From assembly GCF_004217545.1 (NCBI RefSeq), contig NZ_SHKY01000001.1, forward strand, positions 3,906,001 through 3,970,000: a stretch of DNA of 64,000 nt. Direction: 5' to 3'. Made by a program: the position numbers and the translations under genes. This DNA is from Krasilnikovia cinnamomea (lineage in GTDB: Bacteria > Actinomycetota > Actinomycetes > Mycobacteriales > Micromonosporaceae). Shown here piece by piece: positions 12,930 through 32,050 of this stretch. Under the pieces are notes generated by a model that saw only the letters and a program-made list of their open reading frames with translations, was not told the DNA's origin and did not search any database. Numbering within the stretch: the stretch's first letter is position 1; the number at the start of each line of letters is the position of its first letter.

Positions 12930-13654
12930 GCTTGCTGCAGCTCCTTCTGGCGTACGTGGGCATTGAGCGTGGTCAGTTCCGGCCGGTCGGCGAGCCAGTC
13001 CGCGAGGACGCGAACGTCGACCGGCTCGTCGCCGAAATGCTCCACGATCGCCTCGATGAGCCGCCAGTCGTCCTCGGTGTCCAGGGTGAGCCGCAGCTCC
13101 GACAGGTCCGGCTGCAGGGTCAGGCCGAGCACCGCGAAGTCGCGCGGGTGGGCGTACACGTAGGAGGTGACGTGGGTGCGGTGGTGTGCGGTGGCCAGCG
13201 GGTCGATGGTGCGCAGCACGTCGGCGCGGACCACCTCGACGTCCAGGCCGCGCGGCAGGGTGCGGGCGATCGAGGTACTCAGGTAGTCCAGGCCGGGCGT
13301 CGCGGCGAACACCGTGGCGGCCAGCCGCACCAGGCGCGGGTCGAGCAGGGGACAGTCGGCCGTGAAGCGCAGCACCGCGTCCGCCGGGTGCGCGTCGAGG
13401 ACGCCCAGGAACCGGGTCAGCACGTCGTCGGTGGGCCCGCGCCGGCACGCCACCTTCAGCCGGGCGCATTCGGCCTCGACGGCGTCGTCGCGGGACTCGT
13501 CGGTGGTGGCCACGACGACGCCGTCCAGCACGCCGGCGGCCTGCGCGGCGCGGACGACCCGTTCCAGCACCGTACGGCCGCCAAGCCGACGTAGCACCTT
13601 GCCGGGCAGCCGGGACGAGCCCATCCGGGCCTGGACGATTCCGAGGGTGCGCAT
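12926..13654 (-). CDS. pseF: SpsF/PseF-type cytidylyltransferase (CMP-nonulosonate synthase)
   Basis: A 242-residue nucleotidyltransferase of the SpsF/NeuA class that activates a nonulosonic acid with CTP. The first residues GIVQARMGSSRLPGKVL form the nucleotide-binding loop characteristic of the family. FTADCPLLDP carries the metal-binding acidic motif, and DTEDDWRLIEAI lies near the C-terminus. It overlaps pseG by four bases, and fused or adjacent PseF-PseG is common, which supports the assignment. B. subtilis SpsF, a spore-coat glycan gene, is the other close family label. Confidence 0.85.
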   Translation of the reverse strand: MRTLGIVQARMGSSRLPGKVLRRLGGRTVLERVVRAAQAAGVLDGVVVATTDESRDDAVEAECARLKVACRRGPTDDVLTRFLGVLDAHPADAVLRFTADCPLLDPRLVRLAATVFAATPGLDYLSTSIARTLPRGLDVEVVRADVLRTIDPLATAHHRTHVTSYVYAHPRDFAVLGLTLQPDLSELRLTLDTEDDWRLIEAIVEHFGDEPVDVRVLADWLADRPELTTLNAHVRQKELQQA

Positions 13655-13684: not shown

Positions 13685-15298
13685 TCAGGTCCGGGACCGG
13701 CGCAGGGCCCGCCGCGCGGCGGTCAGGCCGAGCCGGGCCAGCCGGTGCCCGAGGCCGCCGCTGAACACGGCGATCTGCAGGTGGGCGCGGCGCAACTCGG
13801 CGTCGCGCAGGGCCAGCTCCCGCTCGTACCAGTCGGTGCGGGCGGTCGCGTCCGCGAGCTGTGCGCGCAGGGCGCGCAGTTGTTCCTCGTGCTCGCGCAG
13901 CGAGTCCGGTTCGGCCGGTCCGGTGCGCGGCGGCGTGCCGGGCAGGTCCGGGCCGAGGCCCGCCGCTCCGGCCAGCACGGCGGTCAGGGTGTCCGGGTCG
14001 GTGGCGGCCGGCCAGGGGTGGGCGTATCCGCCGGTGATCAGGGTGTGGGCGAGTCGGCGCAGCGCCGCCACGGCGGCCTCGGGGGCGCCGGGCGGGTCCG
14101 GGTCGCGCGGGCTGGGGTCGAGCAGGGCGTACGCCTCGCCGTCGAGCAGCACGTTGTCGGCGGTCGCGTACGCCCGCTGCCCGTCCAGCGTCGCCAGCCA
14201 TGCCGACCAGCCGCTGAGCAGCCGCCGGATCCGGGGAAGGTCGTGCCGCAGGCACGCGCTGATCAGGAGTTCTTCGAGTAGCCGCCCGCCGGGCATCGGC
14301 CCGTCCAGGGCGGCGGGATCGCGGTGCGGTGTCGGCTCGGTGGTCCCGCCGACCACCCGCCGCGTCCAGCCACCGTCCCGGTCGCGGCTCAGCTCAAGCA
14401 CCGTCGCGCTTCCGTCGGTGCCGCCGCTCAGCAGGGCGGGGGGCAGGGGCAGGGAGGGGGCCGGGCGCGGTGACCGGTGGGCGAGGACGATCCACGCGGC
14501 GGCGAACTCCGCGCCGAGGCCGCCCCGGACGGCCGCCGCGGCCAGGCGGCGCGGGTCGCTGAGCACGGGCCGCCGCGCGTACGCGGCACCGACCGCGCCC
14601 GCGGCGGCCCCGGCGAGCGCGCCCACCGGGCCGTCCTGCAGGGCGTAAGGGGTGGCCGCCAGGGTCGGTGCCGAGGGCAGCGGCCAGACCGCGGCGAGCC
14701 AGGAGACCGCCAGCCCCTCGGCGGCCAGCCGGGTGGACAGCCGGGCCGGGTTTCCCGGCCTGGACTCGTCGAACTCGCCCAGCGGCCGCCAGACGCCGTC
14801 GGTGTGCGCGGACGTGGCAGCGGTGCGGTCGACCAGCCGGTGCACGCCCAGCTCGTTCTCCACGGTGAGCAGGAGGGTGCCGCCGGGGCGCAACGTGCGG
14901 CGTAGCACCTGCAGGGCCTCGGCCCAGTCGTACTGGGGGCCCTCCACGGAACAGAGCCGGTCGAGTCCGTCGAGCGCGACCACGATGTCGTACCGGTCGG
15001 TGTCGGTGAGTTTGGCCAGAGTGCCACACAGGACGGTGACGCCGCGCCCGGTCAGCCCGTCCGCGTCGGGCTGCGACCGGAGCAGGCACGTGACGTCGGT
15101 GTGCGCGGCCAACCCGGCCAGGATCGCGTCGTCGTGCGGTCCGGCGATCAGGGCCCGGCCCCCGGCGGGCAGCAGGGCGGCCAGCCGCCCGAGCAGATGG
15201 GCGAGGACCGGCCCACCGGCGGGTGGCCGCTCGCCGGGCCGCCGGTCGGACCAGGCGGGCATCTCCCCGCCGATCAGCCGCACCGTCTGTGGAGTCAC
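13685..15298 (-). CDS. methyltransferase-like protein fused to kinase-like region and coiled coil
   Basis: A 537-residue cytoplasmic protein with three parts. Residues about 30-240 resemble a Rossmann SAM-dependent methyltransferase: LAALLPAGGRALIAGP, then DIVVALDGLDRL and LRRTLRPGGTLLLTVENELG. Residues about 350-450 contain YATADNVLLDGEAYALLDPS, similar to the metal-binding end of aminoglycoside-phosphotransferase-like kinases. The last 80 residues are a predicted coiled coil with a basic tip. GTG 15298 overlaps the preceding stop as GTGA. It lies inside the pse operon, so glycan methylation or assembly is likely. Function is not established, and the catalytic kinase Asp region is not clearly visible. 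Confidence 0.6.
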   Translation of the reverse strand: MTPQTVRLIGGEMPAWSDRRPGERPPAGGPVLAHLLGRLAALLPAGGRALIAGPHDDAILAGLAAHTDVTCLLRSQPDADGLTGRGVTVLCGTLAKLTDTDRYDIVVALDGLDRLCSVEGPQYDWAEALQVLRRTLRPGGTLLLTVENELGVHRLVDRTAATSAHTDGVWRPLGEFDESRPGNPARLSTRLAAEGLAVSWLAAVWPLPSAPTLAATPYALQDGPVGALAGAAAGAVGAAYARRPVLSDPRRLAAAAVRGGLGAEFAAAWIVLAHRSPRPAPSLPLPPALLSGGTDGSATVLELSRDRDGGWTRRVVGGTTEPTPHRDPAALDGPMPGGRLLEELLISACLRHDLPRIRRLLSGWSAWLATLDGQRAYATADNVLLDGEAYALLDPSPRDPDPPGAPEAAVAALRRLAHTLITGGYAHPWPAATDPDTLTAVLAGAAGLGPDLPGTPPRTGPAEPDSLREHEEQLRALRAQLADATARTDWYERELALRDAELRRAHLQIAVFSGGLGHRLARLGLTAARRALRRSRT

Positions 15299-16140
15299 GA
15301 GACGGCCTCGGCGACCCGCCGCTTCGGCCCGCGGTGGGTGTGCCAGCCGAGGATGGCGCGCAGTTCGGCGGGCGAGGCGAGGCTGTCCGCGCCGAGTTCG
15401 GCGGCCGCGCTCGCGGCGGCCGCGACCGGATCGGGGTGTACGCCGTGCAGTTCGGGCCACTGGCGGCGGATGCGTTCGGCGGTCGCCCGGTCCTCACCGG
15501 CCAGGCGCATCGGGTCGCCGTACACGGCGGGCTCGCAGCCGGTCGCGGCCCCGTACAGGATGGCGCTGCCCAGGCGGTTCGACGCGACCCGGCGGTGGCG
15601 GCGCAGTTCGGTGAGCTGCCGGCGCAGGAACTCCGGGTCGGTGTCGCGCCACCGGTGGCCGCGGTAGCCGTGGCAGATGACCCGCCCGGCCGCCTCGTAC
15701 ACCGCCCGGATCCGCTCGTCGCGGTATTCGTGCCAGTACAGGCAGAAGGTGACCGGGCCCGGCTCGGTGGCCCTGATCTCGTCGATGAGCCGCCGGTGGT
15801 CGCCGTGCACGCGCTGGCTCTCCCAGCCGTGGAACGGATACCAGAGCGTCCCCTCGCGCGGCCCTGGCCGCGCCTCGGGCCGCAGCGCCATCAGATAGAG
15901 GAACGGCGCCCCGACGACGGTCGCCTGCCGCCGCCCCATCGACCACGCCCGCCGCCGGGTCTGCTCGGACCACACGAGGATGGGCCGCCCGGACACGTAC
16001 GGCGTCCCGGCGCCGAGACCGTCCAGCACGTTCCAGCCGTGCTGCAGGTAGCCCTCGATGCGCGGCGGGTCGTCCGGATCCAGCCCGCAGTACGCGGCCA
16101 GCACGTGGGCGTGGCCGTAGAAGTGGTTGGCGTGGTGCAC
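15295..16140 (-). CDS. unknown protein of the pse operon, possibly GT-B-type transferase domain
   Basis: A 281-residue soluble protein that I cannot assign to a named family. It starts at GTG 16140 (MHHANHFYGHAHVLAAYCGL), five bases after the pseC stop and behind GGGGAG. The ordered segments YLQHGWNVLDG, ILVWSEQTRRRAW, LWYPFHGWESQRV and VTFCLYWHEYRD, together with CHGYRGHRW, are reminiscent of half a GT-B fold as found in surface-polysaccharide transferases. His- and Trp-rich loops are notable. Coupling to pseC and the next gene implies a role in using or modifying the nonulosonate. This is inference from context. Confidence 0.55.
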   Translation of the reverse strand: MHHANHFYGHAHVLAAYCGLDPDDPPRIEGYLQHGWNVLDGLGAGTPYVSGRPILVWSEQTRRRAWSMGRRQATVVGAPFLYLMALRPEARPGPREGTLWYPFHGWESQRVHGDHRRLIDEIRATEPGPVTFCLYWHEYRDERIRAVYEAAGRVICHGYRGHRWRDTDPEFLRRQLTELRRHRRVASNRLGSAILYGAATGCEPAVYGDPMRLAGEDRATAERIRRQWPELHGVHPDPVAAAASAAAELGADSLASPAELRAILGWHTHRGPKRRVAEAVS

Positions 16141-16145
16141 CGGCC

Positions 16146-17270
16146 TCAGCTCCCCAGCACGGTGCGCAGGGTGTCGACGACGCGGTCCTGGTCGGTGTCG
16201 GTCAGGTCCGCGAACAGCGGCAGCGACAGCTGCTCGGCGTAGAACGCCTCGGCCACGGGACACAGGCCGCGCCGGTACCCGAGATCCTCGAACACCGGAT
16301 GCCGGTACGCGGGCAGGTAGTTCACCTGCACGCCGATGCCCGCGGCGCGCATCCGCTCGTACACCTCGCGGCGCCGGCCGCCGAGAACCCGTACGGGATA
16401 GAGGTGCCGCATCGGGTCCGCCCACGCCCGGCGGGCGGGCAGCCGCAGGCCGGGAACGTCCGCCAGCAGCTCGTCGTAGCGGGCGGCCAGCCGGGCCCGG
16501 CTGGCCTTGAAGTCCGCGAGGCGCCGCAACTGGGCGCTGCCGAGGGCGCACAGTACGTCGGGCAGCCGGTAGTTGAGGCCGAACTCGTGCACCTCCTGGT
16601 GCCAGCCGCCCTCGTCGGGGTGGCGCAGCCGGGCCGGGTCGCGCACCAGCCCGACCGTGCGGAACGTGCGGGCCCGCTCCAGCAGCGCCGGATCGGTCGA
16701 CGCGACCGCGCCGCCCTCGCCGGTGGTGAGGTTCTTGGTGGGGAAGAAGGAGAAGGTGGTCAGGTCGGCCAGCGCCCCGACCGGCCGCCCCCGGTACGCC
16801 GACCCGACGGCGTGCGCCGCGTCCGCGATCAGCACCGCTCCGGCGCTGTCGGCCACCTTGCGGAGCTGGTCGTACTCGGCGGGATGCCCGGCGTAGTCGA
16901 CCGCGGTGACCGCCCTGGTGCGCGAGGTCACGGCGGCCTCGGCGGCGGCCGGGTCCAGGTTCGCGGTGTCGTCCTCCACGTCGGCGAAGACCACGGTCGC
17001 CCCGAGCATGGCGGCGGTGGCCGCGGTGGTCACGAACGTCATGGGCGTGGTGACCACCTCGTCGCCGGGGCCGATCCCGGCGGCCGCGTACGCGGTGTGC
17101 AGGGCGGCGGTGCCGTTGCTGACCGTCACGCACGGGGCCCCGGCGACGGCTTGCAGGTCCCGCTCGAAGCGGGTGACCCGGGGTCCGGTGGTGAGCCAGT
17201 CGCTGCGCAGCGCCTCGACGACCGCGGCCACGTCGGACCCGTCGACGGACTGCCGCCCGTACGGCAGCAT
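16146..17270 (-). CDS. pseC: PseC-like aminotransferase (DegT/DnrJ/EryC1)
   Basis: A 374-residue PLP enzyme that would aminate C4 of UDP-2-acetamido-2,6-dideoxy-4-keto-L-arabino-hexose, step 2 of the pathway. The PLP lysine is in FFPTKNLTTGEGG (about residue 184), with SNGTAALH binding the phosphate and DAAHAVGS holding the PLP-ring Asp. The C-terminal GIGVQVNYLPAYRHPVF loop is characteristic of PseC/ArnB-like sugar aminotransferases. ATG 17270 shares its A with the pseB stop (TGATG), so pseB and pseC are translationally coupled. Confidence 0.9.
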   Translation of the reverse strand: MLPYGRQSVDGSDVAAVVEALRSDWLTTGPRVTRFERDLQAVAGAPCVTVSNGTAALHTAYAAAGIGPGDEVVTTPMTFVTTAATAAMLGATVVFADVEDDTANLDPAAAEAAVTSRTRAVTAVDYAGHPAEYDQLRKVADSAGAVLIADAAHAVGSAYRGRPVGALADLTTFSFFPTKNLTTGEGGAVASTDPALLERARTFRTVGLVRDPARLRHPDEGGWHQEVHEFGLNYRLPDVLCALGSAQLRRLADFKASRARLAARYDELLADVPGLRLPARRAWADPMRHLYPVRVLGGRRREVYERMRAAGIGVQVNYLPAYRHPVFEDLGYRRGLCPVAEAFYAEQLSLPLFADLTDTDQDRVVDTLRTVLGS

Positions 17271-18250
17271 CACGGAACCTTCAGCAGGTCGCGCATCTCG
17301 TCGACCTCCAGCCACAGGTCGTTGTTGTCGGAGCGGTAGTTGAAGCCGTCCGGCACCGGCTCGCCGCCGGTCGGGGTCTGGTAGCCCCAGCTGGCGACGA
17401 CGGGCTGGACCACGTACCGGTCGGGGAAGCGCAGGGTGCGGCGGCTGTCGTCGGCGGAGATCATCTCCTCGTGCAGCTTCTCGCCGGGGCGCATGCCGAC
17501 CTCGTGCGTGGGTGCGTCCGGGGCCACGGCCTCGACCAGGTCGAGGATGCGCATGCTGGGGATGCGCGGCACGAACAGCTCGCCGCCCTGCATCCGGTCG
17601 AACGAGTCCACGACGAACTTCACGGCCTGCTCCAGCGTGATCCAGAACCGGGTCATCCGCTTGTCCGTGACGGGCAGGCTGCGTCCTTCGGCGTTCAGGG
17701 TGCGGAACAGCGGGACCACCGAGCCGCGGCTGCCCATCACGTTGCCGTAGCGCACGACCGCGAACCGGGTGGGGTGCTGGGCGGCGTAGTGGTTGCCCGC
17801 GATGAACAGCTTGTCCGCGACCAGCTTGGTGGCGCCGTACAGGTTGATCGGGCTGGAGGCCTTGTCGGTGGAGAGCGCCACGACCTTCTGCACGCCCGCG
17901 GTGATGGCGGCGTCGATGACGTTCTGCGAGCCGTCGATGTTGGTGGCGACGAACTCCGACGGGTTGTACTCGGCGGTGTCGACCTGCTTGAGCGCGGCGG
18001 CGTGCACCACGTGGTCGATGCCGTGCATGGCGCGGACGAGGCGGTCGCGGTCGCGGATGTCGCCGATGAAGAACCGCAGCCGCGGGTCGTCGCCGAACAT
18101 CTGCCGCAGCTCGTACTGCTTCAGCTCGTCGCGGGAGAACACGACGATGCGCTGGGGGTCCAGGTTGGCCAGTGCGTGCCGCAGGAAGGCCTTGCCGAAC
18201 GAGCCGGTGGCTCCGGTCACGAGGATCGACGATCCGCTCGAAATGGTCAC
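17270..18250 (-). CDS. pseB: PseB, UDP-GlcNAc 4,6-dehydratase (inverting)
   Basis: A 326-residue extended SDR starting the pseudaminate pathway: dehydration at C4/C6 with C5 inversion of UDP-GlcNAc. TGATGSFGKAF is the NAD(P)-binding loop, and STDKASSPINLYGATK contains the catalytic Asp-Lys and YxxxK that distinguish inverting dehydratases. RPGEKLHEEMIS near the C-terminus is also typical. I chose GTG 18250 because GGAGTTATAC gives a correct ribosome-binding site. The ATG at 18262 has none, and an open frame further upstream is promoter sequence. First gene of the operon, divergent from the ACP operon. Confidence 0.93.
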   Translation of the reverse strand: MTISSGSSILVTGATGSFGKAFLRHALANLDPQRIVVFSRDELKQYELRQMFGDDPRLRFFIGDIRDRDRLVRAMHGIDHVVHAAALKQVDTAEYNPSEFVATNIDGSQNVIDAAITAGVQKVVALSTDKASSPINLYGATKLVADKLFIAGNHYAAQHPTRFAVVRYGNVMGSRGSVVPLFRTLNAEGRSLPVTDKRMTRFWITLEQAVKFVVDSFDRMQGGELFVPRIPSMRILDLVEAVAPDAPTHEVGMRPGEKLHEEMISADDSRRTLRFPDRYVVQPVVASWGYQTPTGGEPVPDGFNYRSDNNDLWLEVDEMRDLLKVP

Positions 18251-18438
18251 GTATAACTCCATGGGGGTGGCTGCCGAAGGGCGACTCGGCCGGAAGCATA
18301 ACTGCGTGTCGGACCAATTCCAGGGGCTGTGGAAAACGCCAACATCCATTCACATCCTGTTCAGCTTCGATTGGTCGCGAGGACTAGGGTGGTGGGGGAC
18401 GTTGGTTGCCTTCACCCTTGACCCCCTGGAGTAACACC
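18251..18438. promoter_or_regulatory. divergent promoter region between pseB and ACP operons
   Basis: These 188 bases hold the 5' regions of two opposite operons. They are AT-richer than the flanks (for example 18300-18375). Both first genes have clear ribosome-binding sites (GGAG before GTG 18250 and GTG 18439). I could not identify a convincing -35/-10 pair or a palindrome. The shared region makes coordinated expression of the pseudaminate and ACP/LuxC/LuxE operons plausible. Confidence 0.5.
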
Positions 18439-18699
18439 GTGACTGACCTGCAGAGACTGCGCGACGTGTTCCGTGCGGCGCTGGACCTGCCCGCGGACGC
18501 GCCCGTGGACGATCTGCACTACCAGGACCACGAGAAGTGGGACTCGCTCGCCCACATGTCGCTGATCGCGGCCCTGGAAGATGAATTCTCGGTAATGATC
18601 GACACCGAGGACGTCATCAATATGTCCAGCTTTAGCGAGGCAATGAAAATTCTGGGTAAATACGGGGTTGCCAGCGACGGGTGGTCGAGCCGTGGCTGA
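18439..18699 (+). CDS. dedicated acyl carrier protein
   Basis: An 86-residue carrier protein. The phosphopantetheine attachment site is Ser36 in KWDSLAHMSL, followed by the acidic helix LIAALEDEFSVMIDTEDV. GTG 18439 follows GGAGTAACACC; an upstream in-frame ATG lacks support. Its position as first gene before a ketoreductase, AMP ligase and LuxE/LuxC proteins shows that this is a specialised carrier rather than the fatty-acid AcpP. The last 35 codons (from about 18580) use AT-rich codons (AAT, TTT, AAA, ATT) unlike the neighbours. Confidence 0.9.
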   Translation: MTDLQRLRDVFRAALDLPADAPVDDLHYQDHEKWDSLAHMSLIAALEDEFSVMIDTEDVINMSSFSEAMKILGKYGVASDGWSSRG

Positions 18700-19429
18700 T
18701 CGGGTCGCCCTGGTCACCGGGGCTTCCCGCGGCATCGGCCTGGCCACGGCGCACCGCCTCGCCGAGACCGGCCACGACCTGGTCCTGCACGGCCACCGCC
18801 CCGAGCCGGTCGCCGCGGTGGCCGCCGCGATCGCGGACAAGTACGGCGTGTCCGCGGTCAGTGCCGCCGGGGACATCGCCGACCCGGCGACCAGCCGGGC
18901 CGTGATGCGGCTGGCGTTCGAGACGTTCCGCCGCCTGGACGCCCTCGTGGTCAACGCGGGCACCCACGCCGCCGGGGTGCTCGGCATGATCGACGACGCC
19001 ACGGTGCAGCGGCTGTTCGCGGTGAACGCGGCCGGTGCGGCGTACACATTGCAGGGTGCGGTCCGGCTGCTCGGCCGTGGCAAGGAGCCCGCGGTGGTGC
19101 TCGTGGCGTCGGTCACCGGCGAGGTCGGCGCGGCCGGTCAGTCCGTGTACGCCGCGTCCAAGGCGGCCGTGAGCGGCCTGGCCCGCTCCGCCGCCAAGGA
19201 GCTCGGGCCGCGCGGCATCCGGGTCAACGCGGTGGCCCCCGGCTTCATCGCCACCGACATGCTGGACAGCCTCGACGACGCGGGCCGGGCCCGGCGGATC
19301 GCGGACACCCCGCTGGGGCGGCTCGGTGAGCCCGCCGAGGTCGCCGACGTGATCGCGTTCCTGCTGTCGCGGCGGGCCCGCTTCGTCACCGGCCAGGTGC
19401 TGGGCGTCGACGGGGGACTGACGCTGTGA
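18692..19429 (+). CDS. SDR-family 3-oxoacyl-ACP reductase-like (FabG-like)
   Basis: A 245-residue classical short-chain dehydrogenase. TGASRGIG is the NADP-binding loop, NAG follows at about residue 88, and the catalytic Ser (VASVTGEVG), Tyr and Lys (YAASKAA) are all present. GFIATDML and the terminal GVDGGLTL are FabG hallmarks. GTG 18692 overlaps the ACP stop by eight bases. It probably acts on an ACP-bound acyl group made by the following ligase. No ketosynthase gene is in the operon, so a 3-keto substrate would have to come from elsewhere. Confidence 0.88.
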   Translation: MADRVALVTGASRGIGLATAHRLAETGHDLVLHGHRPEPVAAVAAAIADKYGVSAVSAAGDIADPATSRAVMRLAFETFRRLDALVVNAGTHAAGVLGMIDDATVQRLFAVNAAGAAYTLQGAVRLLGRGKEPAVVLVASVTGEVGAAGQSVYAASKAAVSGLARSAAKELGPRGIRVNAVAPGFIATDMLDSLDDAGRARRIADTPLGRLGEPAEVADVIAFLLSRRARFVTGQVLGVDGGLTL

Positions 19430-20778
19430 ACCTGCTCCACCCGGACGCCCGCGTCCTCGACGCGGCGACCGGCGCCACCCTGGATCACGCCCAGGTCGAC
19501 GCCGCCGCCGCCGACTTCGCCCGGCACGCCCCCGGGGTCGCGTTCGCGCTCACCCCGACCGAGCTGCCCGCCGTCGCCCGCTACCTGGGTGCGCTGCGCG
19601 CCGGTCGCCCGGTCGCCCTGCTCGACCCGGAGCTGACCGCGCCCGTGCTGCACGACCTGATCGCGCGGTTCGCGCCCGCCCTGGTCACCGGCGTCACCGG
19701 CGCCCCGCCCGACGGCTACCGGGCCGAGCCCGCCGCCCACCGGGCCGGGGCGGACACGTGGGTCCGGCAGGCCCCGGCCGCCCCGGTGCACCCCGACCTG
19801 GCCCTGCTGCTCACCACCAGCGGCTCCACCGGCAACCCGAAGCTGGTGCGGCTGTCGGCCGCCGCGGTGCGGGCCAACGCCGAGGCCATCGCCGCCAGCC
19901 TGGGCATCACCGGCGCCGAGACCGCGCCGACCACCCTGCCGCTGTTCTACACGTACGGGCTGTCCGTGCTGCACAGTCACCTGCTGCGCGGCGCGACCGT
20001 GGTGCTGGAACGCTCCGGCATGCTGCACCGCGACTTCTGGGCGGCGGTGGACACCCACCGGGTCACGTCCCTGGCCGCCGTGCCGTACCAGTACGAGATG
20101 CTGCGGCGGCTGCGCTTCGACCCGGCCCGCTACCCGCACCTGCGCACCCTCACCCAGGCGGGCGGGCGGCTGCGCACGGAACTGGTCGCCGACTTCGGCG
20201 ACCGGATGGCCGCCGCCGGGGGCTGGCTGTTCGTCATGTACGGCCAGACCGAGGCGACCGCCCGGATGACCGTGCTGCCCCCCGACCGGCTGGCCGACAA
20301 GCTCGGCTCGGCCGGGCTGCCCATCCCCGGCGGCGCGCTGGCCACCCGCGACGGCGAGGTCGTCTACACCGGACCGAACGTCATGATGGGGTACGCCGAG
20401 ACGGCGCGGGACCTGGCGCGCGGCGACGACCTGGGCGGCGTGCTGCGCACCGGCGACCTGGGCCACCTCGACGACGACGGGTTCCTGTTCCTCACCGGGC
20501 GGCTCAAGCGGATCGGCAAGGTCTTCGGGGTCCGGGTCAACCTCGACGACGTGGAACGCGGCCTCGCGACGCACGGCGCCGTCGCGGCCGTCGCGGGCGA
20601 CGACCGGATCCACGTCTTCGTCGAGGGGGCGGACGCGGAGCACGCCCGGGCCGTGCGCGGGGAGCTGGCCGGGTGGCTCGACACCCACTTCTCCGGGCTG
20701 GACGTGCGCGGGGTCGACGCCCTGCCGCTGCTGCCCACCGGAAAAATCGACTACCGCAGGCTGGAAGCGTCGCTGTGA
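19426..20778 (+). CDS. AMP-dependent acyl ligase (adenylate-forming, ACP loading)
   Basis: A 450-residue ANL-superfamily enzyme. Core motifs are intact: TTSGSTGNPK (A3, phosphate loop, about residue 130), YGQTEAT (A5), TGDLGHLDDDGFLFLTGR (A7), RIGKVFGVRVNLDDVE (A8) and PTGKIDY with the C-terminal catalytic lysine (A10). It should activate a carboxylic acid as acyl-AMP and pass it to a thiol. With the ACP as first gene, that thiol is probably the carrier. GTG 19426 overlaps the SDR stop as GTGA. The acid is not predictable; 450 residues is short for a CoA ligase and fits small or medium substrates. Confidence 0.87.
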   Translation: MNLLHPDARVLDAATGATLDHAQVDAAAADFARHAPGVAFALTPTELPAVARYLGALRAGRPVALLDPELTAPVLHDLIARFAPALVTGVTGAPPDGYRAEPAAHRAGADTWVRQAPAAPVHPDLALLLTTSGSTGNPKLVRLSAAAVRANAEAIAASLGITGAETAPTTLPLFYTYGLSVLHSHLLRGATVVLERSGMLHRDFWAAVDTHRVTSLAAVPYQYEMLRRLRFDPARYPHLRTLTQAGGRLRTELVADFGDRMAAAGGWLFVMYGQTEATARMTVLPPDRLADKLGSAGLPIPGGALATRDGEVVYTGPNVMMGYAETARDLARGDDLGGVLRTGDLGHLDDDGFLFLTGRLKRIGKVFGVRVNLDDVERGLATHGAVAAVAGDDRIHVFVEGADAEHARAVRGELAGWLDTHFSGLDVRGVDALPLLPTGKIDYRRLEASL

Positions 20779-21818
20779 GCGTGTTCACCCGTACCCAGAA
20801 GGAGCGCGAGCCGGTGCTGCTGGCCGAGCTGTCCGCGCTCGTGGCGCACCACCGCGCCCACTGCCCCCCGTACGATCGGATCCTCGCGGCCGAGGGTTTC
20901 ACCACCGCGAGTGCCGTCGCGGAGCTGCCGTGGCTGCCGGTCCGGCTGTTCAAGCACCTGGTGCTGAAGAGCATCCCGGACGACGCGGTGTTCAAGGTGC
21001 TCACCTCCAGCGGCACCACCGGCGAGGTGAGCCGCATCCACCTCGACAAGCAGGCCGCCGCCACGCAGACCCGGCAGCTCGGCGCGACGCTGCGGACCGT
21101 GCTCGGCGACAAGCGGCTGCCCATGCTGCTGGTCGACTCCCGGGGCATCCTCACCGACCGCCGCTCCTTCAGCGCCCGTGGCGCCGGGGTGCTCGGCATG
21201 GCCACCTTCGGCCGCGACCACGTGTGGGCCCTCGACCCCGAGGGGCGTCCCGACCTCGAGGCGGTGCGCGGCTTCCTCGCCAGGCACGGCGACGCCCCGT
21301 TCCTCATCTTCGGCTTCACCTACCTGGTCTGGCTGCACCTGTACGAGGTGGCCCGCGACGCCGGGCTCGATCTGAGCAACGGCATCCTGATCCACTCCGG
21401 CGGCTGGAAGAAGCTCGTCGACCGGGCGGTGCCGCCCGCCGAGTTCCGGCGCCGCCTCGCCGCCGACGTCGGCCTGAGCCGGGTGCACAACTTCTACGGC
21501 ATGGTCGAGCAGATCGGCACGATCTTCCTGGAGGGACCCTCGGGCGGTTCGCTGTACTGCCCGGACTTCGCGGACGTGGTGATCCGCGACCCGCACACCT
21601 GGGCGGAGCAGCCGACCGGCGAGCCCGGCCTGATCGAGGTGGTGAGCACCCTGCCCACCTCGTATCCGGGGAATGTGCTGCTCACCGAGGACCTCGGGGT
21701 GGTGCACGGCGTCGACGACGGTGACTGGCCGGGCAAGCGGTTCTCCGTGCTGGGGCGGCTGCCCCGGGCCGAGGCGCGCGGCTGCTCCGACACCTACCGT
21801 TCGGGGAGGGCCGCGTGA
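20775..21818 (+). CDS. LuxE-like acyl-protein synthetase
   Basis: A 347-residue member of the LuxE/PaaK-type family. TSSGTTGEVSRIHLD is the adenylation loop, and FGFTYLVWLHL, GGWKKL and RVHNFYGMVEQIGTIF match the family core. In bioluminescence LuxE activates a fatty acid and carries it on a Cys close to its C-terminus for LuxC. Here Cys337 in RGCSDTY lies ten residues from the end, the equivalent place. GTG 20775 overlaps the ligase stop. With LuxC next, the pair should reduce a carboxylic acid or ACP thioester to an aldehyde. No luxAB is present. Confidence 0.85.
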   Translation: MSVFTRTQKEREPVLLAELSALVAHHRAHCPPYDRILAAEGFTTASAVAELPWLPVRLFKHLVLKSIPDDAVFKVLTSSGTTGEVSRIHLDKQAAATQTRQLGATLRTVLGDKRLPMLLVDSRGILTDRRSFSARGAGVLGMATFGRDHVWALDPEGRPDLEAVRGFLARHGDAPFLIFGFTYLVWLHLYEVARDAGLDLSNGILIHSGGWKKLVDRAVPPAEFRRRLAADVGLSRVHNFYGMVEQIGTIFLEGPSGGSLYCPDFADVVIRDPHTWAEQPTGEPGLIEVVSTLPTSYPGNVLLTEDLGVVHGVDDGDWPGKRFSVLGRLPRAEARGCSDTYRSGRAA

Positions 21819-22993
21819 GGTTTCGGTTCGGTGAGCCGGGGGATGTGACCGAGCCGTCGCACGAGCGGCTGGCGGTCGGCGACGAGCGGGTGGTGGACTT
21901 CCTGGCCCGCTTCGCCCGCCGCCTGCTGTCTCCGGCGGTCGCCCGGCAGCACCCGGAGCTGGGGTCGCTCGGCTACTTCCTGCGCCCCGCCGAACTGGCG
22001 CGTGCGGTGGCCCGGATGCGCCACGACGACGCGCTGGTCTTCCCCCGGGGCAACGTCTTCCACGTCCCACCCGCCAACGTGGACACCATCTTCGTGTACT
22101 CGTGGGCGCTGTCCGCCCTCGCCGGAAACCACAACGTCGTCCGCATCTCGGAACGCTCCGCGGCCGCCGCCGACGTGGTGCTGGAAGCGTTGCACGCCAC
22201 GGAAGCCGACCCGGTCATCGGCCGCACCCAGCGGATGGTCACGTACGGCCGGGACGACGCCGTCACCGCTGCGCTCAGTGCGTGGTGCGACCTGCGGGTC
22301 ATCTGGGGCGGGGACACCGCCGTGGACACCATCCGGGCGCACCCGCTGCGCCCGTCCGCGCGCGATCTCACGTTCCCCGACCGTACGTCCTGGGCGGTGC
22401 TGTCGGTGCCCGGGTGGCGGGTCGCCGACCGGGCCGCCCGGCGCGCGGCCGTGCTCGGCTTCGCCAACGACGCGTACTGGTTCGACCAGGCCGCCTGCTC
22501 GTCACCGCGCACGGTGTTCCTGGTCGGTCCGCGCCCCGACGGGGTCGCCGACGAGTTCCTGACCCTGCTCGGCGAGGCCGTCGCGGAGAAGGGCTGGAGC
22601 GTGGACGCGGCGATGGCGGTGGAGAAGCGGGTCCACGCGTACGGGCTGGCCGCCACCGGCGCGGCCACCGGGCTGCGGCACGCGGGCAACGCGGTCACCG
22701 GACTCACCCTCAGCGGGGTGTCCGCCGCACCCCGGCGCTGGATCGGGGCGGGGGCGTTCCCGTTCGCCGCCGTGGAGTCGCTGACCGACCTGGTACCGGC
22801 CATGACCCGGCAGGACCAGACCGTCAGCCACTTCGGCTTCACCCCCGACGAGCTGCGGGCCTTCGCCGTGGCGCTCGGCGGGCGCGGCGTGGACCGGATC
22901 GTGCCGTTCGGGTCGGCGCTCACTTTCAGCGCGATCTGGGACGGCTACGACCTGCCCCGCGAATTCACCCGCCTCACGACCGTGAAGACATAG
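21815..22993 (+). CDS. LuxC-like acyl reductase
   Basis: A 392-residue NADPH-dependent acyl reductase related to aldehyde dehydrogenases (LuxC family). FPRGNVFHVPPANVDTIF is the family-specific N-terminal block, and FDQAACSSPRTVFLVG holds the catalytic cysteine at about residue 228. SHFGFTPDEL and RIVPFGSAL lie near the C-terminus. GTG 21815 overlaps the LuxE stop. In luminous bacteria LuxC and LuxE form a fatty-acid reductase complex; the adjacent genes suggest the same partnership here. The aldehyde's fate is unknown and no aminotransferase or alcohol dehydrogenase is in this operon. Confidence 0.87.
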   Translation: MRFRFGEPGDVTEPSHERLAVGDERVVDFLARFARRLLSPAVARQHPELGSLGYFLRPAELARAVARMRHDDALVFPRGNVFHVPPANVDTIFVYSWALSALAGNHNVVRISERSAAAADVVLEALHATEADPVIGRTQRMVTYGRDDAVTAALSAWCDLRVIWGGDTAVDTIRAHPLRPSARDLTFPDRTSWAVLSVPGWRVADRAARRAAVLGFANDAYWFDQAACSSPRTVFLVGPRPDGVADEFLTLLGEAVAEKGWSVDAAMAVEKRVHAYGLAATGAATGLRHAGNAVTGLTLSGVSAAPRRWIGAGAFPFAAVESLTDLVPAMTRQDQTVSHFGFTPDELRAFAVALGGRGVDRIVPFGSALTFSAIWDGYDLPREFTRLTTVKT

Positions 22994-23000
22994 GAATCCG

Positions 23001-23999
23001 ATGACACCCCCCGTGCTCTCCGTCGTCGTCCCGATGTTCAACGAGGAGGCGGTGATCCCGGCGTTCGTCGCCCGGCTCCGGCCGGTCCTCGACGACCTGG
23101 ACCTGCCGTACGAGGTCGTCGCGGTCGACGACGGCAGCGCCGACGGCACCGCAGGGCTGCTCGCCCAGCAGGCAAGCGACTGGCCCGAACTGCGGCTGGT
23201 ACGGCTGCGTCGCAACAGCGGCCACCAGGCCGCGCTCACGGCGGGCCTGCACCGGGCGTACGGCGACTGGGTGGTCAGCATCGACGCGGACCTGCAGGAC
23301 CCGCCCGAGACGATCCCGCGCATGCTGCGGCTGGCCCGCGAGCAGGGCCTCGACGTCGTGTACGGGGTCCGCACCGACCGCAGCACCGACACCGCGTTCA
23401 AACGGCACACCGCCGGGGTCTACTACCGGTTGATGCGCCGCCTCGTCGGCGTCGAGGTGCCCGCGCAGGCCGGGGATTTCCGGCTGCTCAGCCGCGAGGT
23501 GGTGGAGGTGCTGCGCGGCCTGCCCGAGCGCGCCCCGGTGTACCGGCTGCTGGTGCCCTCGCTCGGCTTCGCCGCAGGTGAGGTGTCCTACGCCCGGGCG
23601 CCCCGGGCGGCCGGGACGACGAAGTACCCGCTGCGCAGGATGGTCGCGCTGGCGTGGGACAGCGCCGCCGACTTCTCCGCCGCGCCGCTGCGGCTGGCCA
23701 CCTGGCTGGGGGCGGCGGCCTTCGTGCTGTGCCTGGCGCTGATCGTGTTCGGCGTGGCGGTGTGGGCCAACGGGGCGGTGATCCCCGGCTGGACGTCGCT
23801 CTTCCTCGCCGTGCTGCTGCTGTCGGCGGTGCAGCTGATCTGCCTCGGCCTGCTCGGCGAATACGTCAGCCGGATCTACCGTACGGTGCAGAACCGGCCC
23901 ACGTTCCACATCGGATACGACTCGGCGGACGAGGCCGGGCACCCCGTGGAGATCCCCGGCCAGCGGCGCGCCGACCGCGCCCCGGCCGCCGCCCGATGA
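23001..23999 (+). CDS. GtrB/DPM1-like polyprenyl-phosphate glycosyltransferase (GT2)
   Basis: A 332-residue GT2 enzyme that transfers a sugar from a nucleotide donor to polyprenyl phosphate on the cytoplasmic face. It has the N-terminal VVVPMFNEEAVIPAF, the VDDGSADGT nucleotide motif, DADLQDPPE (metal-binding DxD region) and two C-terminal hydrophobic helices (about residues 235-260 and 270-295), the GtrB topology. ATG 23001 follows AGGAATCCG, eight bases after the LuxC stop. It is coupled to the large membrane protein downstream, the usual partner type for periplasmic sugar transfer. Confidence 0.88.
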   Translation: MTPPVLSVVVPMFNEEAVIPAFVARLRPVLDDLDLPYEVVAVDDGSADGTAGLLAQQASDWPELRLVRLRRNSGHQAALTAGLHRAYGDWVVSIDADLQDPPETIPRMLRLAREQGLDVVYGVRTDRSTDTAFKRHTAGVYYRLMRRLVGVEVPAQAGDFRLLSREVVEVLRGLPERAPVYRLLVPSLGFAAGEVSYARAPRAAGTTKYPLRRMVALAWDSAADFSAAPLRLATWLGAAAFVLCLALIVFGVAVWANGAVIPGWTSLFLAVLLLSAVQLICLGLLGEYVSRIYRTVQNRPTFHIGYDSADEAGHPVEIPGQRRADRAPAAAR

Positions 24000-26431
24000 C
24001 CGCCGCGCCGCTGGCGGACGTAGCGGATCGGGAGTCGCCCGCGCGGCAGGCCAGGCCGACCGGGCGGGAGCGCTGGCCGCGACGGGTCCGGTCCCGGCGC
24101 CACCTCCTGGCCGTGGCGCCGTGGCCGGTGGTCGCCGTCGTCGGCGGCTACACGCTGCACGCCACCGGCACCCCGGCCGTGGACGCCGCCGCGTACGCGT
24201 CGTACTGGGCGCTCTGCGTGGTGCTGCCCGGCACCCTGGTCTTCCGGGCGCTGCGCGGCAGCCGGGGCAATCTGCCCGAGGACCTCGGCCTCGGCGCGGC
24301 CACCGGCCTGGTGCTGGAGCTCGCCGCGTGGGCGGTGTCCGCCGCAGCCGGATGGCAGCCCGCGCTGCGCTGGTGGCCCGTACCCGTGGTCGTCGCGTTC
24401 CTGGCGGTGCCGCGGCTGCGGCGGCACTGGCGGATCGGTGACCGGCGCCCGCTGCCGGTCGCCTGGTCGTGGCTCATGGCCGTGGTCGTGCTGCTGATCG
24501 TCGGCTGGGCCGGGTATCCGATGCTCGGCAACCCGTTGCCGCCCGCCACGGCCGTCTACTACCAGGATCTGATGTACCACCTGGCGCTCGTGCGGGAGCT
24601 GACCCGCACGATGCCGTTCGAGGTGCCGCAGCTCGCCGGGCAGGCCCTGCGCTACCACTACCTGTCGGACGCGCACATGGCCACCGCCAGCATGATCACC
24701 GGAGTTCCGGCCAGCACCGTGCTGCTGCGGCTGTGGATGGTGCCGATCCTGGCCACGGCCGCGTTCGTGGTCGCCGTACTGGGTCGGGACCTGGCGGGGC
24801 GCTGGTGGGCCGGACCGGCGGCGGCCGGCGCGGCGTTCGTCGGGCTGCCGGTGACCCTGGGCGCCCCGGGCGGCTTCCTCGCCGGCAGCCCGGCCGTCTT
24901 CGCCAGCCCCTCGCAGATGTACGCGCTGCCGCTGGCCGCGCTGCTCGTCGTGCTGGCCGTGGACGTGCTGCGCGGGCGGCCCCTGGGCTGGGGGTGGACG
25001 CTGGTGCCCGCGCTGGCGTTCGCCTGCGCCGGGGCGAAGTCGAGCATCCTGCCGCCCCTGGTCGTGGGTGTGGTCCTGGCTGGGGTGGTCGTCTGGTGGC
25101 GGGCCCGGGCGGTCTCCTGGCCGGTGCTGGGGCTGTTCGCCGCGTTGGTGGGGGCGATGGCCCTCGGGTTTCGCGTCTTCGCGGGCGGGGGCGCGGGCAC
25201 CCTGGCGGTGCAGGCGCTGGCCGCGCTCGACTGGATGGCGCCGTACCAGCGCACCCTGGGCCTGCGCGACGGGCCGGGCCACGACGGGCTGGTGCTGCCG
25301 AGCGCTGCCGGGGCCACGGGCGCCGAACGGTGGTTCATCGTCTGGGTGGTCGGGTGGTGGCTGCTCACCCAGACGCCCCGGCTGCTCGGTCTCGCCGCGC
25401 TGGGGGTCCGGCCCACCCGTGGTGACCCGGCGGCGTGGCTGCTGGCCGGGGTCACCCTCGCCGGTGTGGGCGGCACCTGGCTGTTGTGGCATCCATCGTC
25501 CAGCCAGGTGTACTTCTTCACGGGCGTGGTGCCGTTCGGCGCGGTGCTCACGGTGTGGCTGCTGGCGACGCTCACTGCGCCGGGCGGGGGGTGGCAGCGG
25601 GTCGCGGCCCTGGTCGGGGCGGCCGTGGGGGCTCTGTGGGGCGCCTTCGCGCCGCGTGTGGCCGCGCCTGGCCGCTCCACCGTGGACGGCTGGGCCCACG
25701 CTCTTGCCGTACCGGCGTGGCGAGCGGCGGCCGGGCTGGCGGTCCTGCTGGTCGTGGTCGCCGTGCTGGGCCGCGCCGAGCTTCCGACCGGACGGGCGGG
25801 CCTCCGTAGGGTCGGCCGGTTCCTCGGCGCGTCGCGGGCGCCCGGCGCGGCACCGGAGCGCCGGGCGGTCGCACGCCTGGTCGCCGCCACGGCCGTGGCC
25901 GCGGTGCTGGGCTGCGGAATCGGCACCGGCGCCGCTGCCATCGTGGACAATCTGCGGACGGCGCAGCGCAGTCCGGTCCCGCTGTCGAACAGGTTGGTCA
26001 CGGCGGCGGAGATGCGGGCGGCCCAGTGGCTCGACGCGCACGCCGGCCTGGACGACGTGGTCGCCACGAACGTGCACTGCCAGCCGGTACGCACCCGGCC
26101 CGGGTGCGACGCGCGGGCCTTCTGGGTCGCCGGGCTCGGCGGGCGCCGGACGCTCGTGGAGAGCTGGGGCTACTCCGACGCCGCGGTCGCCGCGAACGGT
26201 GTCGGCGACGTCAAGTACATGTTCCAGCCGCCCCCGGACCCCGCGGTGTACGCCCTCAACGAGCGTGCCTTCACCGCGCCGACCACCGCGGACCTGGCCG
26301 AACTGCGCCGGGTGCACCGGGTCCGCTGGCTGTTCGCGGACCGGCGGGCGGGCCCGGTCTCACCGCAGCTCCCGGAACTGGCCGTGGTCCGCCTGACCGA
26401 CGGGCCGGTCACGATCTACGAGCTGCGCTGA
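23996..26431 (+). CDS. large polytopic membrane protein, probable GT-C-type glycosyltransferase
   Basis: An 811-residue protein with roughly 14 or more hydrophobic segments between residues 35 and 660, then an extracytoplasmic C-terminal domain of about 150 residues. The early loop YYQDLMYHLALVRELT, with acidic and His residues before an RYHYLSDAH motif, is like the first exoplasmic loop of GT-C enzymes, where an Asp activates the acceptor. The ATG overlaps the GtrB-like stop (ATGA), so it likely uses the polyprenyl-linked sugar made by that gene. I cannot name a characterised family. The soluble end (ASVVAT-like DDVVATNVHCQP) resembles C-termini of uncharacterised actinobacterial glycan polymerases/transferases. 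Confidence 0.65.
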   Translation: MTAAPLADVADRESPARQARPTGRERWPRRVRSRRHLLAVAPWPVVAVVGGYTLHATGTPAVDAAAYASYWALCVVLPGTLVFRALRGSRGNLPEDLGLGAATGLVLELAAWAVSAAAGWQPALRWWPVPVVVAFLAVPRLRRHWRIGDRRPLPVAWSWLMAVVVLLIVGWAGYPMLGNPLPPATAVYYQDLMYHLALVRELTRTMPFEVPQLAGQALRYHYLSDAHMATASMITGVPASTVLLRLWMVPILATAAFVVAVLGRDLAGRWWAGPAAAGAAFVGLPVTLGAPGGFLAGSPAVFASPSQMYALPLAALLVVLAVDVLRGRPLGWGWTLVPALAFACAGAKSSILPPLVVGVVLAGVVVWWRARAVSWPVLGLFAALVGAMALGFRVFAGGGAGTLAVQALAALDWMAPYQRTLGLRDGPGHDGLVLPSAAGATGAERWFIVWVVGWWLLTQTPRLLGLAALGVRPTRGDPAAWLLAGVTLAGVGGTWLLWHPSSSQVYFFTGVVPFGAVLTVWLLATLTAPGGGWQRVAALVGAAVGALWGAFAPRVAAPGRSTVDGWAHALAVPAWRAAAGLAVLLVVVAVLGRAELPTGRAGLRRVGRFLGASRAPGAAPERRAVARLVAATAVAAVLGCGIGTGAAAIVDNLRTAQRSPVPLSNRLVTAAEMRAAQWLDAHAGLDDVVATNVHCQPVRTRPGCDARAFWVAGLGGRRTLVESWGYSDAAVAANGVGDVKYMFQPPPDPAVYALNERAFTAPTTADLAELRRVHRVRWLFADRRAGPVSPQLPELAVVRLTDGPVTIYELR

Positions 26432-31004: not shown

Positions 31005-32050
31005 CGCGACAGCGCCCCGGCGTCGGGCTGCGCCCCGGCGTCGGGCTGGACCCCAGCAGGTGCCGGGGGGCCGGGTTCGGTGTCGGAGGCTGGTCGCAGG
31101 CGTAGCGACAGGGCGGGTGCGGGGTCGGCGAGGCCGAGCAGGACCGGGCTCGCGACCGGTGTGGTGAGGCGCAGGTCCAGCCCGCCGGGATGGCGCGCCA
31201 CCACCTCCACCTCGACCACGGCGCCGGTACCCAGGTCGGTGGCGTACACGTCGGGGCGGCCGGGGGCGCGCGCGGGGAGCACCCGCGCGCGGGCCCGCAG
31301 CGCGACACGCCGGGCCAGCCGCAGCCCCTTGAAGGCGGCCCGGGCCGGTTTGCGGCGGGTCCACCGGTTCGACGGCGAACGCGGCACCGGCGGGGCCGGT
31401 GGCACCGGCGCCACGTCGAGCCGGAACACCCCGGACGCCCCGGGCGGCAGCAGGGCCAGGTCGCACCCGGATGCCTGCCCGGTCGCGGGGGCGGTGGCGC
31501 CTGCGGTCGGGGCGGGGGCCGGCCGTACCGTGATGCGGTCGATCCGCAGGCCCACCGCGGACCGCGCGCAGAACCGGTCGCCGGCCCACGACGGACGCGG
31601 GGGGTCGGCCAGCTCCACCACGAGCAGACCGTCGGCGTCCAGCTCGTCCGCCGCCAGGTCGAACGAGACCTGGGCAACCGCCCCGGCGGCCGCGCGCCAG
31701 CCCTGGCGGCGGGCCAGCAGCGTGGCGGCGCGGAGCCTGCCCTGCGCGCGGACCAGGACCAGCCGGGGGCGTTCGGCGTCGGTGCGCGGGGGCCGGACCC
31801 GGTCGGACCACCAGCGGGTGCCGAGCTCGTCGAGGTGCAGCTCGACCGTCACGCGGACGGACCCGGCCGGGCCGTGGATCTTGAGCGCGACCGCGCCGAA
31901 GTCGCCGGTCACCCGGCCCACGATGCCGGTGCCGCGCACCACCTGATCGACGATGCACAGGCCGGGGGCGCGGCCGCTGCTGACCTCGGCGGGCAGGTCG
32001 AGGACCGGCGCGGGGCCGTCGTAGTCGGTACGGAACCAGGTGCCGATCAC
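31001..32050 (-). CDS. unknown protein of second pse operon (beta-rich, two-part)
   Basis: A 349-residue soluble protein that I do not recognise. The first 180 residues are beta-rich with alternating hydrophobic strands (VALKIHGPAGSVRVTVELHL, RPRLVLVRAQGRL). A basic linker around residues 225-265 (RRKPARAAFKGLRLARR) follows. A second beta-rich part ends in a Pro/Ala-rich tail with two PDAGAQ repeats. GTG 32050 overlaps the preceding stop. The design, without membrane or catalytic motifs, looks more like a binding or scaffold protein than an enzyme. Confidence 0.5.
   Translation of the reverse strand: MIGTWFRTDYDGPAPVLDLPAEVSSGRAPGLCIVDQVVRGTGIVGRVTGDFGAVALKIHGPAGSVRVTVELHLDELGTRWWSDRVRPPRTDAERPRLVLVRAQGRLRAATLLARRQGWRAAAGAVAQVSFDLAADELDADGLLVVELADPPRPSWAGDRFCARSAVGLRIDRITVRPAPAPTAGATAPATGQASGCDLALLPPGASGVFRLDVAPVPPAPPVPRSPSNRWTRRKPARAAFKGLRLARRVALRARARVLPARAPGRPDVYATDLGTGAVVEVEVVARHPGGLDLRLTTPVASPVLLGLADPAPALSLRLRPASDTEPGPPAPAGVQPDAGAQPDAGALSR

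Follow-up and report, generated by a model that had tools for sequence, protein, structure and literature searches.

Genes for LuxE- and LuxC-type proteins have been described in flagellin glycosylation islands. According to excerpts of PMC7874193, 98 Aeromonas group II islands carry the genes of an acyl carrier protein (ACP), a 3-oxoacyl-ACP reductase, an AMP-dependent synthetase, luxE and luxC between pse genes, the genes of the pseudaminic acid (Pse) pathway. The same excerpts state that the islands glycosylate flagellin, that Maf-2 is located after pseI, that the glycosyltransferase fgi-1 follows luxC in all but one of the 98 strains and that in 66 of them the island does not directly follow polar flagellum region 2; a "liposugar" was suggested. 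For Enterobacteriaceae, excerpts of PMC4875605 report flagellin glycosylation islands with the gene types Acp, LuxE, LuxC, CaiC ligase and FabG and propose a contribution of fatty acids. In this study we analyzed an operon of Krasilnikovia cinnamomea (genome size 7.6 Mb) whose first five genes encode an ACP, a short-chain dehydrogenase/reductase (SDR), an AMP-dependent ligase, LuxE and LuxC. It is located beside pse genes in a window of 64,000 nucleotides, the whole stretch of DNA that was analyzed. We propose, with a probability of roughly 0.6, that these five genes, here called the cassette, form a core which makes and delivers a short hydroxy-acyl group, predicted to be 2,4-dihydroxybutanoyl or a close relative, for the N-acylation of Pse.

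A further described system is the 3-deoxytetronate (2,4-dihydroxybutanoate) pathway of Vibrio cholerae O1, which comprises ACP, AMP ligase, dehydrogenase, LuxE and LuxC functions as the window does. In excerpts of the literature citing Morona 1995, RfbL and RfbK are assigned to 2,4-dihydroxybutanoate and RfbN to tetronate (PMC4772473, PMC12208996); 2,4-dihydroxybutanoic acid is named as the RfbL substrate, putatively attached to CoA or RfbK (PMC12208996). The window differs from the rfb genes in that LuxE and LuxC are separate proteins and an SDR is found instead of the iron-dependent alcohol dehydrogenase (Fe-ADH) RfbM. The acceptor differs as well. It is perosamine for the tetronate of V. 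cholerae O1 and, by our proposal, Pse in the window, where a PseH-type GNAT is the candidate acyltransferase.

The lux bioluminescence operon has the LuxE and LuxC families with aligned cysteines in common with the window. However, no luciferase-family (luxAB) match was found in the 47 of 56 window proteins scanned with Pfam, in agreement with the initial annotation, and the two systems are far apart in the LuxE tree described below.

The initial annotation had presented the locus as a candidate undescribed system. This view had to be abandoned because the same five genes, in the order in which the paper lists them, lie beside pse genes in Aeromonas (PMC7874193, excerpts) and the gene types occur in Enterobacteriaceae (PMC4875605, excerpts). 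A LuxE of Aeromonas veronii is 47% identical to the window LuxE. Thus, the gene set is already known, and its actinobacterial, probably non-flagellar setting is new. The position after luxC is taken by a GT2 glycosyltransferase both in Aeromonas, where it is fgi-1, and in the window, where it is GtrB/ArnC-like. Unlike the Aeromonas islands, the operon is separated from the flagellin genes of its own genome by 1.47 Mb, the gene set persists in flagellin-less relatives, and a GtrB/GT-C pair is present in addition. The Enterobacteriaceae loci share the gene types of the window, but are flagellin islands. Excerpts of the nonulosonate literature on Clostridium and on Vibrionaceae/Moritella contained no mention of the cassette terms.

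The Seven-Gene Operon

The operon comprises seven plus-strand genes at positions 18439..26431 of the window. Coding statistics, Pfam and NCBIfam bore out this arrangement, which the initial annotation had read as seven near-overlapping genes; the first six have Pfam matches. The gaps between successive genes are −8, −4, −4, −4, +7 and −4 bases, with the +7 gap preceding the GT2 gene. The ACP (18439..18699; PF00550, 25.7 bits) contains Ser36 within a WDSLAHM motif that is common to RfbK-like ACPs. It is followed by the FabG-like SDR (18692..19429; PF13561, 193 bits, and PF00106), a proposed semialdehyde reductase which stayed under the NCBIfam cut-off of every one of the 25 families shown, and by the AMP-dependent ligase (19426..20778; PF00501, 118 bits), a proposed acyl-ACP ligase. 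The LuxE-type acyl-protein synthetase (20775..21818; PF04443, 147 bits) and the LuxC-type acyl reductase (21815..22993; PF05893, 92.5 bits) have solved relatives in 7xc6_E and 7xc6_A, respectively; the assignment of LuxE is also based on its tree. Ser36 and the C-terminal Cys337 of LuxE were found in place as initially annotated, as was the LuxC cysteine, Cys228. Both cysteines align with cysteines of lux and RfbN-like proteins, which we take to be the catalytic ones. No ketosynthase was found among the 47 window proteins scanned, and the operon contains neither a ketosynthase nor a thioesterase.

The sixth gene (23001..23999; PF00535, 118 bits) encodes a GtrB/ArnC/PgfS-type GT2 with two hydrophobic segments. 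Its top NCBIfam matches are of the PgfS and ArnC type, both far under the cut-off, and judging from its sequence the enzyme is probably linked to polyprenyl-phosphate. The 811-aa membrane protein encoded by the last gene (23996..26431) has no Pfam or NCBIfam match. Its AlphaFold2 model (pLDDT 83) gave GT-C enzymes, yeast OST and ArnT, as the top solved Foldseek matches (E 1.3e-4 to 4.8e-4, TM 0.33–0.48), so that the model supports, but does not prove, a GT-C-like glycosyltransferase. The initial assignment of the last two genes was therefore upheld for the GtrB-type enzyme and supported for the GT-C protein. Within a same-genus set of 35 relatives of the Actinoplanes type, neighbourhoods covered 17 of the 27 genomes with a high-identity LuxE. 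GtrB followed LuxC in five of these 17 loci and the GT-C gene was present in 11, one of the 17 being cut at that point; N. gerenzanensis holds the two in reverse order. GtrB and GT-C hence look like an accessory, ArnC/ArnT-like pair outside the core, which might add a further sugar outside the membrane.

Relationship of LuxE to RfbN-Like Proteins

The window LuxE showed 30% identity (164 bits) to an RfbN-like LuxE-LuxC fusion versus 21% (62 bits) to a lux-type LuxE. An unrooted LuxE tree was built from 63 hand-chosen rows. Four of them were lux-type: three usable rows of ten loci tried, plus one (L212) which sits in a lux operon by inspection. In this tree 49 cassette-type rows grouped at 99/99, including four from rearranged sets (three vibrio, one Rhizobium). 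The cassette rows joined the RfbN-like rows at 98/96 and remained a clade separate from these fusions; the four lux-type rows stood apart.

The family to which an Aliivibrio metagenome-assembled genome (MAG) belongs was represented by 247 genomes, 40 of which encode a LuxE-family protein. Three genomes of this family contain a fusion of 825–827 aa in the order ACP, AMP ligase, 374–375-aa protein, fusion. The clusters around it include NeuB-like or related sugar genes. In the scanned case (L201) the 374-aa protein is an Fe-ADH, and the fusion consists of LuxE (residues 3–374) and LuxC (423–818). Thus, an Fe-ADH between the ligase and the fusion fills the slot of the SDR. We take this order to be that of rfbK-L-M-N in V. 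cholerae. The ACP and the ligase beside RfbN-like fusions match cassette sequences, those of the window among them, at 27–34% identity.

Distribution of the Cassette

Further loci were sought with an alignment of seven LuxE sequences as query, and the best 80 of 576 confirmed relatives were inspected. These were ranked against a Deinococcus LuxE and are therefore a sample of that clade only. They span about ten phyla, among them Actinomycetota, Bacillota, Pseudomonadota, Acidobacteriota, Myxococcota, Bacteroidota, Spirochaetota and Chloroflexi. Genes were labelled with home-made HMMs after simple gene calling, by which the PseB label also takes other sugar dehydratases and ACP genes can escape. 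After omission of seven loci with short flanks, LuxC and the ligase were each present in 72 of 73 evaluable loci, the ACP in 70, the SDR in 68 and all five genes in 66, an association beyond chance. The median overlaps between cassette genes were 4–8 bases.

For 57 loci at least 9 kb of flanking DNA was available on each side. A DegT aminotransferase was found in 50 of these, PseI in 19, a labelled sugar acyltransferase in 31, and a DegT or a labelled acyltransferase in 54. In this sample, therefore, the homologues did not lie mainly outside glycan loci, the outcome that the initial annotation had named as speaking against its reading. Within three genes of the cassette, a labelled acyltransferase was present in 36 of the 80 loci and a DegT in 37. 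The acyltransferases at the side of the cassette are of unlike kinds, namely PseH-type GNAT, PglD-type and LpxA-like or other hexapeptide proteins. A phosphopantetheinyl-transferase label of the AcpS type occurred in 5 of 80 loci and was confirmed with Pfam beside LuxC in one (L068). Apart from the lux locus itself, a single luciferase-family protein (in L137) was detected in the neighbourhoods searched.

LuxE is rare in the phylum: 8 of 396 genomes of an even draw gave a match, the K. cinnamomea genome included, and more than 35% identity was reached in only two others. The first named matches came from Krasilnikovia, Couchioplanes and Actinoplanes.

Lysinibacillus fusiformis (L130), a Rhodospirillales MAG (L132) and Rhizobium plasmids (L039) carry an inserted transketolase N/C pair within the cassette or next to it, hinting at a version of the cassette with an altered acyl product.

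Co-Occurrence with pseI

PseI with at least 76% identity was present in 28 of the 35 same-genus relatives, 27 of which also hold a high-identity LuxE. None of the seven genomes without PseI contained such a LuxE (Fisher 1.2e-6 for the link of LuxE with pseI, shared ancestry ignored). Two of the seven (G016 and G031) carry a LuxE of 53% identity in a cassette beside a PglD-like hexapeptide protein. Homologues of pseB, pseC, pseF and pseG were found beside the cassette in 17 of 17 same-genus loci.

The single exception among the 28 genomes with PseI, G020, has no LuxE match anywhere in its genome. In its pse locus (L213–L214), pseB and the GT-C gene face each other with none of the five cassette genes in between. 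Elsewhere, the G020 locus contains an ACP (83 aa), a ligase (422 aa), an SDR (247 aa) and a 150-aa protein which is phosphopantetheinyl transferase-like by inspection and has no NCBIfam match. This module adjoins a PseH-type GNAT that is 48% identical to the one of the window, compared to 64–80% in the 16 other same-genus loci. Another ACP module together with a diverged PseH would be expected if the cassette feeds PseH. This apparent swap is seen in a single genome, whose contamination is estimated at 8%.

Proposed Function and Alternatives

Gene content, order, motifs, distribution and the tree are direct data, whereas we infer all of the reactions, which substrate is used, which amine accepts the acyl group and which polymer carries it. 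LuxE would activate one carboxylate of a small dicarboxylate, at best guess malate, as acyl-AMP and take over the acyl group on Cys337. LuxC would then reduce the thioester at Cys228 to a semialdehyde, which the SDR would convert to the alcohol. The AMP ligase would activate the remaining carboxylate and load the acyl group on Ser36 of the ACP. The PseH-type GNAT (34670..35161, minus strand; TIGR03585, 71 bits, under the cut-off of 93.1; PseH structure 4xpk, E 0.002), the proposed N-acyltransferase, could finally transfer it to the 4-amino group of the UDP-sugar intermediate, corresponding to N7 of Pse. It is the sole acyltransferase recognised among the genes scanned between 9.4 and 40.5 kb of the window. 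The group predicted is 2,4-dihydroxybutanoyl, also called 3-deoxytetronyl, or something closely related, for example 4-hydroxybutanoyl. Two carboxyl-activating enzymes, one reductase and one dehydrogenase, with no ketosynthase among the 47 window proteins scanned, fit the conversion of a small two-ended acid, a dicarboxylate, to a carrier-bound omega-hydroxy acid better than chain building, and a sugar amine as acceptor would account for the changing acyltransferases and the DegT neighbours. The initial annotation had already suggested a reduced or hydroxylated, carrier-linked acyl unit for a surface glycan, with LuxC and LuxE acting at the aldehyde level. That part may be retained, while its lipid anchor appears less likely than a short N-acyl group.

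Mass data from Aeromonas are consistent with this proposal. As reported in excerpts of the Aeromonas literature, the linking sugar of the group II strain A. piscicola AH-3 is a 376.14-Da Pse derivative, which is found alone in the fgi-1 mutant and also on lateral flagellin. Addition of C4H6O3 (102.0317 Da) to mono-N-acetyl Pse (274.1165 Da) yields 376.1482 Da. Among the acyl groups tried only the isobaric dihydroxybutanoyl and O-methylglyceroyl groups fit 376 Da. In strain AH-1 a single Pse-like sugar of 403 Da was reported, and no glycosyltransferase genes are located between the pse genes (excerpts).

In its wider form our proposal is tentative, and we would not rely on it: the cassette may be an exchangeable module that provides N-acyl groups for amino sugars in about ten phyla. 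It would make 2,4-dihydroxybutanoyl-ACP, as the equivalent of the V. cholerae tetronate pathway with an SDR, decorate a non-flagellar Pse-bearing envelope polymer in actinobacteria and explain the unassigned 376-Da Pse of Aeromonas, perhaps also its terminal 102-Da unit. In flagellar islands the cassette has been noted as a set of fatty-acid genes without a product, and the tetronate logic turns this lipid idea into an exact mass prediction. The Pse oxonium ion is predicted at m/z 377.155 for the N-acetyl, N-dihydroxybutanoyl form versus 317.134 for the diacetyl form and can be searched for in existing glycoproteomic data. If the proposal is true, interchangeable ACP modules determine how the N-acyl groups of Pse vary, and they do so outside flagella as well.

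Several points weigh against an N-acylation of Pse with dihydroxybutanoate. The LuxE tree is unrooted, lux-type proteins are represented in it by just four rows, and according to a warning of the program long branches, those of the RfbN-like rows included, may join falsely. Besides, the comparison takes rfbK-L-M-N-O as the gene order of V. cholerae O1. FabG acts on ACP-bound beta-ketoacyl groups, and the window SDR is annotated as FabG-like. PseH normally uses acetyl-CoA. In 44 of the 80 loci, those with short flanks included, no labelled acyltransferase was found within three genes of the cassette. No LuxE match was obtained in three same-order relatives that contain PseI (57–60% identity), so the cassette is dispensable for Pse, and many cassettes of the best 80 loci lie in clusters without a recognised PseI, so Pse is not the sole acceptor. 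The mass match comes from one strain at two decimals, and O-methylglyceroyl has the same formula. Moreover, excerpts of the Aeromonas literature show that a second 102-Da unit, likewise unexplained, terminates the AH-3 glycan, so that Pse need not be the only place of such a unit, and that "376 Da sugar" appears without explanation as a label in a figure legend for AH-1. Searches of the open-licence PMC literature yielded neither a product nor a substrate nor a structure for such a cassette.

The same route might start from another acid, giving 4-hydroxybutanoyl from succinate, 3-hydroxypropanoyl from malonate, or lineage-specific groups. We consider this rather unlikely, yet it deserves more attention than the other alternatives. 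The enzyme logic leaves the acid open, and the cassette versions with a transketolase or a thiamine pyrophosphate (TPP) enzyme suggest variation. However, 4-hydroxybutanoyl Pse has a mass of 360.15 Da instead of 376.14 Da, and the nearest lineage with an assigned product is given 2,4-dihydroxybutanoate in the excerpts of its literature. In Psychrobacter marincola, as far as excerpts report, the acyl group on Pse is lactoyl, and the sole mention of 4-hydroxybutanoyl in them is the title of a cited Idiomarina paper.

Improbable in our view is a conversion of fatty acids to fatty aldehydes or alcohols as the lipid part of a liposugar or of its anchor, even though LuxC and LuxE of luminous bacteria use long-chain acids and both island papers point to lipids (liposugar in PMC7874193, a fatty-acid contribution in PMC4875605; all from excerpts). 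The window LuxE joins the RfbN-like rather than the lux-type proteins, both a ketosynthase and a thioesterase are missing from the operon, and hexanoyl, decanoyl, 3-hydroxydecanoyl and tetradecanoyl Pse all miss 376 Da. Furthermore, no lipid mass was found in the excerpts of the Aeromonas glycan literature.

We attach little credence to a third possibility, in which a keto acid is attached to the ACP by the ligase and then reduced on this carrier by the SDR, a true FabG in that case, and LuxE and LuxC supply or salvage an aldehyde that is used elsewhere, for example as the carbon block of a branched sugar. It would agree with the FabG-like annotation of the SDR, with the other module of G020, where ACP, ligase and SDR occur without LuxE and LuxC, and with the transketolase or NeuB-like proteins beside some cassettes. 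Against it, 66 of the 73 evaluable loci retain LuxE and LuxC together with the rest of the cassette, tightly overlapping as described above.

Flagellin or Envelope Polymer

The genomes of 40 of the best 80 loci were tested for flagellin; of 14 known genomes in the control, four gave a positive result, including E. coli and B. subtilis. Flagellin exceeded the cut-off in 20 of the 40. It was not found in 12 of 12 genomes with high-identity pseBC plus cassette from Micromonospora (2), Salinispora (3), Nonomuraea (5) and Actinomadura (2, one of them filed as [Actinomadura] parvosata). Flagellin was present in five Actinoplanes-type genomes with pse genes and cassette and in six such genomes of Bacillales or proteobacteria (L127–L130, L157, L158). 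It was also detected in the K. cinnamomea genome and in 35 of 35 same-genus relatives, including all eight without a high-identity LuxE. PF01973, presumably the family to which Maf belongs, had no match in the own genome, a weak result because its control was positive only in four archaea.

Modification of the flagellin of motile spores, as in Aeromonas, is accordingly the least probable explanation: the presence of flagellin throughout the same-genus set and in the eleven genomes mentioned, together with the published flagellin islands (known from excerpts), speaks for it, but the 12 flagellin-less genomes, the eight flagellin-positive relatives without high-identity LuxE, the distance between flagellin genes and operon and, weakly, the missing PF01973 match speak against it. 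Because of the flagellin-less genomes with pse genes and cassette and because of this distance, the actinobacterial glycan is probably an envelope polymer and not flagellar. The term "teichulosonic" was not found alongside Actinoplanes among the literature matches listed.

Pseudaminate Genes and Other Genes of the Window

Homologues of PseB, PseC, PseF, PseG, PseH and PseI are all represented in the window, so that the Pse pathway initially annotated alongside the operon was recovered. PseB and PseI exceeded their NCBIfam cut-offs; PseC, PseG and PseH stayed under theirs, and PseF was recognised with Pfam. A block of six minus-strand genes is divergent from the ACP gene and begins 176 bases away from it. 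It consists of PseB, a UDP-GlcNAc 4,6-dehydratase (inverting) (17270..18262; TIGR03589, 496 bits, cut-off 408), a PseC-type aminotransferase (16146..17273; TIGR03588, 395 bits, cut-off 423.5), a 284-aa protein (15295..16149), a 537-aa protein (13685..15298), a PseF-type cytidylyltransferase (12926..13654; PF02348, by Pfam alone) and a PseG-type hydrolase (11865..12929; TIGR03590, 86 bits, cut-off 153.6). The N-terminus of the 537-aa protein is methyltransferase-like by eye; the protein has no Pfam or NCBIfam match.

The 284-aa protein recurs beside PseC in actinobacterial pse loci. Its model (pLDDT 73) is at most weakly GT-B-like, with a top PDB match at E 1.5e-3 and TM 0.3. These matches were too weak for an assignment as a GT-B enzyme, which was rejected. 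In several Nonomuraea loci (L036:12655-13086 and similar) its relative was called far shorter (90–217 aa), which may be an artefact of gene calling.

On the other side of the operon and also on the minus strand, PseI, the pseudaminic acid synthase (33630..34673; TIGR03586, 467 bits, cut-off 340), adjoins the PseH-type GNAT. A GT2 glycosyltransferase (PF00535) is encoded at 35188..36279 on the minus strand. Upstream of pseI, three genes without Pfam match (336, 349 and 527 aa) occupy 29994–33630. The 527-aa protein (32047..33630, minus strand) recurs in some pse loci, and a relative of it adjoins the cassette in an Actinomadura locus (L155). Two neighbouring genes of the crcB/Fluc type are located at 28716–29593.

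Other combinations of LuxE and LuxC were seen among the loci. In two loci of the Aliivibrio family (L204 and L206) they occur with a 594-aa protein and a NeuB-like protein. When L204 was scanned, the 594-aa protein turned out to be a TPP enzyme, and a FabA-like dehydratase was found alongside. The NeuB/TPP pairing of L204 is reminiscent of Shewanella sfmAB. The Shewanella sfmABCDE genes, considered as a candidate for the same system, were rejected: excerpts of their description list a NeuB-like protein, a TPP enzyme, an ACP-reductase, a methyltransferase and an ATP-grasp protein, without LuxE, LuxC or ACP. Finally, a Streptomyces europaeiscabiei plasmid (L042) carries a distant LuxE/LuxC pair by YcaO, MBL and DUF692 genes, an arrangement resembling a cluster for a peptide natural product.

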